A DNA stretch of 64,000 nucleotides from NCBI GenBank assembly GCA_020809425.1, contig JAGGDC010000001.1:62001-126000 (forward strand), given 5' to 3'. Shown in pieces: positions 1 through 64,000 of the stretch; positions within the stretch are counted from its first letter, which is position 1; the number at the start of each line of letters is the position of its first letter. The notes beneath the pieces were generated by a model. It was not told the DNA's origin, made no database searches, and saw only the letters and a list, made by a program, of their open reading frames with translations. The DNA comes from Candidatus Synoicihabitans palmerolidicus (lineage in GTDB: Bacteria > Verrucomicrobiota > Verrucomicrobiia > Opitutales > Opitutaceae). A program made the translations under genes and the position numbers.

Positions 1-203
1 CCACCACGCCCGGAGGCGCGAGGGCTAAGGACAGAGAATCACGCCATCAGTCGCCAAGCCAAACTCGCGGTGGTACTTTCAACCTAGAAAAAAACGCAGT
101 CCAAATAAGAAACGCATGTAACAAAGTTATGTTATCCAGTCGGTTAATGGGTTTCAAACGTGCCCCCGCCGACTCACCTGGCAGGTGAACGAATCGATGT
201 CTT
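1..203. other. Non-coding or undetermined left edge
   Basis: No open frame with recognisable protein features and no RNA gene was seen here. It lies just downstream, on the minus strand, of the decayed response regulator-HDOD gene, and may hold its 3' trailer or further unreadable remnants. Confidence 0.3.
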
Positions 204-2107
204 CTACGGACCGTGACTCGTTCCAACTTCGCGCCCTTCGTTCCCTTTTAGTAACATCCTACTTCGGAATCTAGGTTCAGTCCGAGTGGCCCCCTCTCCA
301 TCATTTGGCTCCCACGCAGGAGAAGCGTGAACAACTTTTGTATCAACTTCTTGGATTCGAACGAGTTTGCCTGCCACTGGCTCAAACGCGCCAAGTGGGG
401 CTCTGCATCCTTCGGCTACCGGCCGACCATAGTTTGGTGCGATTCGCGCCAGCCTGAACCGCAATTCCCGACAATGTGAATGTAGCTGCCGCTCGAACTC
501 CCGCCGATTAAAACTAAGAAACACACAGTCACTCAGGATCTTCCACTGCGGCATCTCTGCCAGTTTGAAATCCGCCCCTAGGTTCGGTTCCCCCGACGCC
601 CCCACTGTATTGTGACAACAAAACGCCCGCGCCAACGAGACCAAACGTTGATCTTCCGTCGCTTCCTCGGGGGGTATTGACCCACCGGATCACATTGGCA
701 AATTGCAGCGACAACCCAAATCTCTCCCCCATCTCATTCGTGCTGCACCCAAAATACAACCGTTCCACTCGATGCAGTGCCACCTTGTGCAGTCGACTGT
801 GTTCCATCACCGCTCTAAATCTCAGCGGTTGCAAATTCGCTAATATAGTCGTTCGATGTCATGTATTTCACCCGCCGCCTGCGCCACCGACTCCATGGTA
901 TAACGCTCAAGTTAACGACATATCTCCTGCGCAATACGCGCCACTCCGCGTTGAAATATCCAGTACTCAGACCAATTGAATCCCGGTGGCACATCCATGA
1001 CTGATTTCGAGATAGTGATAAGACCCCGTCCCTGCGCAGCTAAACGTTTCTCACCCAATTGCCCCACCGCCAGTTTCGCGTCTTCGATCCCCCAATCATC
1101 ATCTCGGTTGGAGTGCGCTTGATTTGCCGCAATCAACATTTGCACCGACAACCCCGGGTCGCGAGCGACCAGGTCCATCAGCGGATTAATGCAGGAGGGG
1201 TGCCCGTTCGCCGTCATCTGGAAAGACGCCGCTGCCGAGTCAATTACCGGGCACCCCGGCAATGCGTCCACTTGCTGTTCCAAGTGTTCGCGTTTCATCA
1301 CCGGGCATCGTCCCTCTCTCGGAGCATCGATCCACTCAGCATAGGCCTTTTCTTTCGCTTCGGTTGCCACTTCCGCTTCCGTCAAAAACCCTTCGCACAC
1401 AATCGTGGGTTCAAGGCGGTGCTCGATCAGCCGCGCTCCAAATTTCAATGGCTCCATTAACCTCGGAATAAGCGACCATTGCTCTGCCTTCCTCGCAGCT
1501 TCGACCGCGCCCAGCGCTTCGACGATTCCCCTCGCTCCGGCCGCCTCCGCATTCGCTAGCAATGCCGCGATCTCCTCGAGTAACTCCACGGTTCCCTGAG
1601 CCTCTGACCAGGCCAACAACACCGAAGGAGCCGCTTCAGCCGATTTTCTCCCGTGGGCCAATCGCTCATGCAACTGTCCGCGCTCATAGCCCATGGTTCG
1701 CCAAAACGGAGCCTCCTCTTCAAAGTGCCCGCTACGCCACGGATTGGCCATCGCCTTGGTAATCTCCCTAAAAACGACCTCATCGTTATAAGGCTTGATT
1801 AGAAAATTCTGCACATTCGCTTCCAAGCATACCCGACCCCATTTCGGTCTCCCCGGGCTGTGTACACCACTATCGGGATCTTCTTCCTTTGACTATCCGC
1901 TCTCAGCCTTTTGATCAGATTGATCCCACTCCCATCCTTCAATTGTAGCTCCACCAGAACCAAATCAATCTTCACATTGGTCTGAATAAATTCCCAGGCC
2001 TCCTCTCCCGACTCAACCGTCGCCAAACGGTGCTTTCCACGATCGAGAATGCCTCGCATGGCGCTTCTCGCGGTTTCCCCTGGATCAACTTGAAGTATAT
2101 TCGACAT
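204..2107 (-). pseudogene. Response regulator receiver-HDOD domain protein, multiply frameshifted
   Basis: Read on the minus strand from 2107, a receiver domain starts MSNILQVDPGETARS and carries a conserved strand followed by the usual K-P segment (FLIKPYND). The frame breaks near 1826 between the receiver core and that segment. Frame two (1826-912) carries the start of an HDOD domain (LMDLVARDPGLSVQMLIAANQ). It then breaks near 912. The expected HD-like segment (IHDIERLY) and the later part (ERLYFGCSTNEMGERFGL, then FKLAEMPQWKIL) follow in other frames down to about 204. In the family such proteins are c-di-GMP or phosphorelay-linked regulators. With at least three frame changes this copy is almost certainly non-functional. 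The exact 3' end is uncertain. Confidence 0.75.
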
Positions 2108-2246
2108 GACGCGTCAGATCTGATCTCCTACCTGAACTTGTGCGGGGTCAAACGTCCCTCCCTATCGACCCTGCTTTCGTAAACCTAAACAAACTTACTT
2201 CAATCTTCGCAATTCCTCGCGTCGACCTAGGGGTTCCCTCCAATTA

Positions 2247-62370: not shown

Positions 62371-63252
62371 TCAGGCCGCGGTGAACTGAGCGGCGGCAAT
62401 TTCGAGAATTTCCTGAGTAATGGCGGCCTGACGGGCCTTGTTGTATTCGAGCGTGAGGTCGTCGAGTAGGTTGGATGCGTTGTCCTTCGCGGTCTTCATG
62501 GCGACCATGCGAGCGCTGTGTTCGGAGGCCTTGGTGGAGCGCGCGAGTTGGTAGAGGTAGCGATTTACGTAGAAGGGCAACAGGGCTTCCAGTACCGTCT
62601 GAGCGTCTGGCTCGAAGATCATGAGACGATCGTCGGCAAATTCTTTAGCACGGTCTTCGCTGTGGTCGTCCGAAAGGGTTTCCACAAACTCACGTAGATT
62701 CTCCAGAGGGAGGATCGGACGATGAATTGGTTCTTGGATAAGCGTGTTCTTAAAGCGCGGATAGATGACTTCGATGGTGTCGATTTCTCCCTTCAGGAAG
62801 AGGTCGATCATGTAGTCGCCAATCACCTTGATTTCGTGGAACGGAACTTTGTCGTGGATACCGAAATCGGCGACGACGTTACGTTTGGTGCGAGCGAGGA
62901 ATTGAGCGCCTTTACGACCGGATACCACGTATTTCGCTGGACCTGTGATATCGCCAACCATTTTGAAGAGATTGGCGTTGAGGGGACCGCAGAGACCCTT
63001 GTCGGTGGTCACGAGCAAGATGCCGCGGTTTTTCACCTCTCTGGGTTGGAGGAATGGGTGGAGGCTGCCGTCGACCTTAGAGGCAAGGCTGGCGAGCATG
63101 TCGGCCATGAGGACGGCGTAGGGACGGCCCGCGATTGCGGCGGCCTGAGCCTTCTGCATCTGCGACGCAGCGACCAACTCCATCGCCTTGGTGATCTGGC
63201 GAGTGTTTTTAACCGACTTGATGCGTCGGCGAATGTCGCGAGTGGAAGCCAT
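62371..63252 (-). CDS. atpG: ATP synthase gamma subunit
   Basis: A 293-residue F1 gamma: [34 protein letters not shown] at the N-terminal coiled coil; [20 protein letters not shown]; and C-terminal [20 protein letters not shown] and [20 protein letters not shown]. It is the rotating shaft. 43 bp after atpA. Confidence 0.96.
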
Positions 63253-63295
63253 CAGATTTTAGGTGCGGGCAGCAGGAGGGATGAAGCGAGTCGGC

Positions 63296-64000
63296 TCAGC
63301 TATTGGTGGCGGCCCATTCGTCGCAGGACGTCTTGAGTGCGGCCTCGATCTCGTCGTTGAGCTTGGCTGCTTCGCGGATCTTGGTGAGCAGCGCGTCTTT
63401 GCGGGTCGCAAAGAATTCACGCAGCGATTCGGCAGCAGTCTGAACTTTGGCGGTGTCGATCTTGGTGTAGTAGTCTTTTTGCAAAGCCCACAGGGTGACC
63501 ACCTGCTGTTCGATCGGAATCGGGTTGAACGCGGGTTGCTTGAAGAGCTCAACAATGCGGTTGCCGCGGTCGAGCTGGGCTTTTGTCTTGGCGTCGAGAT
63601 CGGAACCGAACTGGGCGAAGGCGGCCAATTCGCGGAACTGGGCGAGTTCGCCCTTTAGTTTACCACCGACCTGGTTGGTGGCCTTGATCTGAGCGGCGGA
63701 ACCGACACGGGAGACGGAGAGGCCCACGGAAACGGCCGGACGGATACCTTGGTTGAAGAGGTCGGTCTCAAGGAAAATTTGACCATCGGTGATCGAGATC
63801 ACGTTGGTTGGAATGTAGGCCGAGACGTCGCCAGCCTGGGTTTCGATGATGGGGAGCGCGGTGAGCGATCCCTTGCCGTCGAGGCGGGCGGAGCGCTCAA
63901 GCAAGCGGCTGTGGAGGTAGAACACATCACCCGGGTAGGCCTCACGACCGGAAGGACGCTTGAGGATAAGGGAGATTTGGCGGTAGGCCACGGCGTGCTT
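63296..64000 (-). CDS. atpA: ATP synthase alpha subunit, C-terminal part (runs off the window)
   Basis: At least 232 residues of the C-terminal half: [60 protein letters not shown] and [20 protein letters not shown]. The nucleotide-binding P-loop lies beyond 64000. It ends in [10 protein letters not shown]. First visible gene of the F1 block; delta, b, c and a subunits are presumably to the right. Confidence 0.97.

Follow-up and report, generated by a model that had tools for sequence, protein, structure and literature searches.

Evidence for recent selective gene decay and insertion sequence expansion in Candidatus Synoicihabitans palmerolidicus

Introduction

Why should uninterrupted genes lie side by side with genes broken by repeated frameshifts and stop codons? 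The question is raised by bases 62,001-126,000 of contig 1 of Candidatus Synoicihabitans palmerolidicus (genome 4,399,668 bases, 10 contigs), a stretch of 64,000 nucleotides hereafter called the window. A first-pass annotation, made from the sequence alone, had described clean essential genes, about eighteen broken accessory genes and multiplying insertion sequences (IS) there, and had proposed recent decay under relaxed selection. Two reference genomes, a codon model that requires no reference, internal controls of accuracy and a clock read from the IS copies all support the proposal that decay was recent and selective and went with IS expansion. The most probable explanation, to which we give a probability of about 0.88, is that the genome of an ascidian-associated member of the Opitutaceae, whose host is most likely an Antarctic sea squirt, has entered an early wave of decay.

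Disrupted and clean genes in the window

Reference genes were taken from two of the seven same-genus genomes, each complete in a single contig (G001, 5.93 Mb; G003, 6.11 Mb), and compared with the window by means of a frameshift-aware protein-to-DNA aligner. An event was counted if both alignments gave the same class (frameshift or stop) no more than 45 nt apart, a rule adopted because single references gave events in 46/323 genes (interior in 31) when G001 was compared with G003 as a control. Two shadow or overlapping frames (40157 and 58339) were removed from 43 window loci, leaving 41; three rows of the core region considered below (10215, 12425 and 43795) were likewise excluded as shadow frames.

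Twelve of the 41 loci were disrupted, by 31 events (25 frameshifts and 6 stops) over 11.9 kb, while the other 29 showed no event backed by both references and comprised 29.4 kb in single open frames. Every event satisfied the two-reference rule in 10 of the 12; the exceptions were the HDOD response-regulator gene, for which G003 was the only reference, and ogt, counted from G001, in which the frameshift recurs in a weak G003 alignment. Comparison with the two reference genomes confirms that the two classes of gene are real, although broken genes number about 12 by this count rather than some eighteen. The earlier list also needs amendment: a GyrI-like gene is disrupted too, a nucleoside phosphorylase given as broken was not found among the window loci with an orthologue, and the gene labelled TrmA-like scores best as RlmD.

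Three of the 12 (the kinase, ogt and FKBP genes) keep a near full-length open frame, and without them 9 disrupted genes and 26 events remain. A check of open frames errs in both directions: in the YihY-family gene a chance frame covers 92% of the span and the true frame is broken, and those three genes stay open despite altered stretches. One clean locus is doubtful: 29722-30478 corresponds to the upstream half of a G003 gene that extends further, and four events are seen with that reference; were it counted, the totals would be 13 loci and 35 events. Events given by both references in four genes (rpsC, rpsL, a tatD gene and one for a TPR protein) were not counted, as they reflect over-long reference starts and the genes' own frames are open. 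An alcohol-dehydrogenase-family gene outside the window, with a single event against G001 only, was left out of the window counts.

Disrupted genes were less conserved between G001 and G003 than clean ones (Mann-Whitney P = 0.0015; 11 versus 27 window loci, with five loci, three of them in the window, excluded for want of a reference-to-reference value). To call the clean genes ‘essential’, as had been done, is too strong, because the retained genes also include those for a sulphate permease and an AMP-ligase and a sterol-dehydrogenase-like gene; ‘still under selection’ describes them better.

Accuracy of the assembly

Regions in which error would be readily visible were clean. A ribosomal/RNA-polymerase block of 36 genes (28.3 kb in open frames, 29.2 kb span) showed no real disruption, its only two both-reference calls (rpsC and rpsL) being located at or upstream of the true starts; rpoB, rplB and S12 were identified by search, and the remaining ribosomal genes are presumably as we name them. 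Four giant frames on the palmerolide-cluster contig (6212, 7310, 2665 and 2464 aa) are uninterrupted over 56.0 kb. The first-pass argument that random error would strike both classes alike is upheld: at one uniform rate, the probability of no events is 9e-4 for the core block, 1.4e-6 for the giant frames and 5e-4 for the clean window loci (calculated on locus spans), and the error ceiling set by core block and giant frames together predicts 1.5 events in the disrupted genes, where 31 were seen.

Insertion sequences as a clock

The window holds five copies of one element, IS A, which partial matches below cut-off suggest to be ISNCY-like. At least 46 near-full copies are present in the genome (37 from 40 of 190 candidates scored, and 9 further), and a density of 17 copies in 584 kb (12 near-full, 5 partial or split) suggests, by extrapolation, about 100 genome-wide. 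The query that detects these copies gave no match in the seven same-genus genomes (first 40 candidates scored in four of the seven). A sense frame of at least 450 aa was present in none of 34 aligned copies. In their majority consensus the transposase frame is split by two shifts; at the first, 29/29 readable copies agree in length, which suggests either programmed frameshifting or an already broken element spread in trans. A second IS is also multicopy (six copies compared). The window is assembled from blocks that lie far apart in G001 or G003, mapping to four distant places in G001, and IS elements stand at 4/4 of the joins between such blocks.

IS A copies differ from their consensus by a mean of 1.8% and carry 1.91 frameshifting indels/kb. 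Bearing in mind that a gene is classed as disrupted only if it has at least one event, and that the consensus is not the root, the disrupted window genes match this closely, with 2.10 frameshifts/kb and 0.50 stops/kb, the latter against 0.53/kb predicted by the IS spectrum at 1.8% divergence. Selection thus appears to have been absent from the disrupted genes for about as long as the IS A copies have been diverging; given the similar densities in genes and dead copies, gene loss and IS burst look contemporaneous. The decay is recent. At the rate just given, some 80 events would be expected in the 29 clean loci, and none is supported by both references.

Decay beyond the window

A reference-free codon model gave a coding fraction of 0.720 over 564 kb (window included), against 0.892 in G001 (235 kb) and 0.894 in G003 (240 kb). 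It placed 56 frameshift junctions here, none in G001 and three in G003, and is insensitive, finding 5 junctions in the window against 25 frameshifts by aligner and calling no in-frame stops anywhere. Outside the window, near the clean core block, a 2-oxoacid:ferredoxin oxidoreductase gene shows 11 events over 4.6 kb, with G003 as the only reference; its identification as glutamate synthase was rejected, since both Pfam and NCBIfam place it with the oxidoreductases. GC content was 58.7% in the window and 56.0% in the 60-kb core region, lower than the 59.7-64.1% of the relatives' stretches, and an excess of C>T was found on the genome's own branch.

Two further observations concern the genome at large. 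About 9.5 kb (G000:C5:386001-446000, offset 21633-31134) lies between rpoC and the rpsL side, which are near each other in G001 and G003. Estimated completeness was 69.8%, compared with 96.04% in the published description (PMC8636102), and broken marker genes may be the cause of this gap.

Mutation spectrum and a MutT-like hydrolase

Singletons in the 34 IS A copies (folded) comprised 130 C>T, 62 T>G, 33 C>A, 22 T>C, 10 C>G and 8 T>A; the six copies of the second IS gave 20 T>G and 2 T>C. A:T>C:G changes thus exceed A:T>G:C in both families (62:22 and 20:2; ratio in IS A 2.8, bootstrap 1.7-5.2), without being dominant (62/265 and 20/78 singletons). The IS A spectrum implies an equilibrium GC of 0.46 (0.39-0.53). 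No IS repeats were found in the stretches of G001 and G003 examined, so that the excess lacks a same-genus control. At four-fold sites over the whole branch, T>G/T>C in intact genes was 0.46 versus 0.26 and 0.33, a weak shift; in disrupted genes, with small counts, it was 0.22 versus 0.70 and 0.93, no shift.

In Escherichia coli an excess of A:T>C:G marks the loss of mutT (PMC12359138). The resemblance goes only so far: mutT mutators show nearly all changes as A:T>C:G (PMC12359138, PMC12273949), compared with about a quarter of singletons here. A MutT-like Nudix hydrolase is present in 6/7 relatives, as the G001 gene and five others at 52-65% identity to the G001 protein. It was not found in G005 or in the present genome, the assembly of which may be incomplete; the best matches in the latter reached 21 bits (E 7e-4, with a stop) and, in another search, E 0.02, and no relic was seen in three loci compared. 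The relatives' protein does not reach the MutT cut-off and is compatible with hydrolases of the MutT/NudG type. The link between hydrolase loss and the A:T>C:G excess is circumstantial, because the family resembles NudG too, the spectrum is less extreme than that of a mutT mutant, no relative serves as control and the four-fold shift is weak or absent.

Discussion

We infer host restriction as the cause, which fits the identity of the organism as an ascidian-associated member of the Opitutaceae, and with it an order of events. The lineage would have become host-associated, whereupon selection on many genes would have lapsed. Around then the putatively ISNCY-like element, not found in relatives, would have multiplied to tens of copies, and the second IS would have spread too. 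Unselected genes and dead IS copies would then have gathered small indels and stops at an equal neutral pace, and genes still needed, including the giant frames of the palmerolide-cluster contig, would have been kept clean.

Several points weigh against this account. Uncounted one-reference events occur in 8/29 clean window loci and 5/36 core genes, most of them within over-long reference starts. Amino-acid identity gives no clear sign of faster evolution in the disrupted genes, which resemble the references about as much as the references resemble each other. In the suggested comparison of dN/dS, the nonsynonymous/synonymous ratio of 10 disrupted genes is raised only modestly on the genome's own branch (0.665, against 0.594 on the G001 branch); 69 intact genes gave 0.343 on the own branch and 0.419 on the G001 branch. 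Accelerated protein evolution belongs to later stages of decay and its weakness is hence not taken as excluding an early one. Genome size is not decisive, the same-genus range being 3.6 to 6.1 Mb. Four of 21 frameshifts lie near homopolymers of at least 5 where 5.4% would be expected, an enrichment consistent with slippage and equally with a small number of residual errors. The agreement of four sister contigs with the cluster contig (1-5 mismatches and at most one indel each in the first 20 kb) is not fully independent, as repeat contigs may share reads. Finally, Murray et al., who reported the genome (10 contigs, 58.7% GC), described it as without evidence of reduction and only suspected many pseudogenes (PMC8636102).

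Homopolymer enrichment would also be expected if the frameshifts were indel errors of long-read or homopolymer-prone platforms, and the published assembly draws on 454, Ion Proton and PacBio data (PMC8636102). Such errors should, however, have reached the core block and giant frames, which are undisrupted despite 73 and 195 homopolymer runs of at least 5, against 31 events and 48 runs in the 11.9 kb of disrupted genes. The IS copies contain unique indels of up to 30 bp, and the sister contigs agree closely. Random error was rejected on the cleanness of core genes, giant frames and sister contigs, and the internal controls make sequencing or assembly error very unlikely. Scarcely more credible is a mixture of strains, in which reads joined across several strains would give false frameshifts: the assembly is metagenomic (PMC8636102), but core genes would have been struck too, reported contamination is 0.39% and the sister contigs again argue against it.

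Two other explanations accept the damage as real and are improbable to a similar degree. Were an IS burst the prime cause, transposition and IS-mediated rearrangement would have destroyed the genes, with small indels following; the abundance of one element and the IS at four of four joins of rearranged blocks speak for this, yet in all 12 disrupted genes the alignment covers 89-100% of a reference protein with no IS inside, and the 31 events in them consist of frame changes and stops. Alternatively, loss of a hydrolase that sanitises the nucleotide pool might have raised the mutation rate and broken genes without any change of lifestyle. The A:T>C:G excess in two IS families, the MutT-like gene present in 6 of 7 relatives but not found here and the disruption of ogt are all in keeping with a mutator. 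A mutator, however, would strike all genes, whereas the core and 29 loci of the window show no disruption, which indicates that selection was kept there and lost elsewhere; 25/31 events are frameshifts, whereas MutT loss gives substitutions; and G005 is without the gene too and is 99% complete.

More speculatively, loss of the MutT/NudG-like hydrolase and disruption of ogt could have reset the mutation spectrum early in the decay, with the stream of A:T>C:G changes offsetting the usual A+T drift and with gene inactivation and IS burst dating from the same event. We regard this as tentative. If true, an equilibrium near 46% GC would mean that the present symbiont can lose genes without becoming AT-rich, and an odd spectrum would be one possible reason for the moderate GC of some decaying symbionts.

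The novelty lies not in the kind of process, which is known, but in its extent, clock and spectrum in the present genome. Nascent insect symbionts of the Sodalis pierantonius type reportedly combine recent mass gene inactivation with IS expansion, as here, and differ in phylum and host; their role is nutritional, where the present genome has retained a presumed defensive-metabolite cluster. Closer in kin is Candidatus Didemnitutus mandela, also a tunicate-associated member of the Verrucomicrobia, which is reported to have a low coding density, pseudogenes, a polyketide cluster in seven copies and DNA-repair losses (PMC5698493). It is further advanced, at 2.68 Mb and without alkA and tag (PMC5698493), whereas the present genome has 4.4 Mb, has undergone an IS burst and keeps open the frame of an HhH-GPD (alkA-like) glycosylase. 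With the published account of the palmerolide producer there is agreement on the giant open frames of the cluster contig, the decay being measured here and not there (PMC8636102). A literature search, with subscription titles mostly outside it, found no earlier report of decay in this genome beyond the statements of that paper.

Early decay would revise the published view, in which the genome of the palmerolide producer is not undergoing reduction, and would place a second tunicate-associated member of the group on the path of decay, at an earlier stage than Ca. Didemnitutus mandela. With its tens of dead IS copies, the genome provides both a neutral clock and a mutation spectrum, through which the order of gene loss, IS burst and repair loss becomes testable.

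Other features of the window

Features of the window and their coordinates are collected in Table 1.

Table 1. Features of the 64,000-nt window, with coordinates in window positions and the references supporting each disruption
Feature	Coordinates	Strand	Reference support
HDOD response-regulator gene, broken, 4 events	447..2107	-	G003 orthologue only
IS A copy 1 (putatively ISNCY-like), at rearrangement join	2270..4061	-	
GyrI-like gene, broken, 3 events	4042..4564	+	both references
ogt, O6-methylguanine-DNA methyltransferase, 2 events, C-terminal quarter read in the wrong frame; a comparably long frame still open	4640..5099	+	G001, weak G003
ACT-domain gene, broken, 1 event	6224..6608	-	both references
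Retained run, kinase excepted (hisS, AAA+ ATPase, ubiE-like, rpoN, neighbours)	6626..13823		no both-reference event
Protein kinase gene, two cancelling frameshifts ~60 nt apart, frame open	11353..12312	+	both references
IS A copy 2	13963..15765	-	
S41 PDZ protease gene, broken, 4 events	17307..18717	-	both references
Retained genes	19683..23173		no both-reference event
Second IS, DDE_Tnp_1_assoc, at rearrangement join	23471..25391	+	
YihY/BrkB-family membrane protein gene, broken, 4 events	25417..26927	-	both references
GYF-domain gene, broken, 3 events	26955..27723	-	both references
IS A copy 3, at rearrangement join	27804..29603	-	
Histidine kinase gene, broken, 1 event	32394..33909	+	both references
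IS A copy 4, at rearrangement join	33948..35727	+	
IS1380-family element, partial frame	35815..37243	-	
ISL3-family transposase frame	37702..38595	+	
RlmD/TrmA-like methyltransferase gene, broken, 3 events	38957..40225	-	both references
Histone-deacetylase-family gene, broken, 3 events	45134..46003	-	both references
Retained: 1151-aa protein and sulphate permease	47316..53000		
FKBP-type isomerase gene, 1 event, C-terminal part read in the wrong frame; a comparably long frame still open	53308..53879	+	both references
IS A copy 5	53880..55654	+	
Retained genes	56222..64000	-	no both-reference event

Some of these names are our own assumption: hisS and rpoN were named from reading the sequence, the retained genes of 19683..23173 presumably include rpmB, fabF, acpP and fabG, those of 56222..64000 are taken to be feoB, atpC, atpD, atpG, atpA (cut by the window end) and others, and the second IS we take to be ISAs1-like. 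The 1151-aa protein, called a PPi-PEPCK in the first-pass annotation, had no Pfam or NCBIfam match, and scans of the window with ARAGORN and Rfam gave no match.

In the protein kinase gene the cancelling frameshifts alter about 20 residues, and the nonsynonymous/synonymous count is low (17/68); to judge by its sequence, the kinase may still be working. At 46170-47279 (+) queC continues in frame into an apparent next gene, giving a frame of 369 aa versus 258 aa in G003. Adjoining open sterol-dehydrogenase-like and AMP-ligase genes occupy 41139-43849 (-), an arrangement suggestive of an oleCD long-chain olefin pair. GC skew changes sign at about 34-38 kb of the window, at an IS-rich join of distant blocks.

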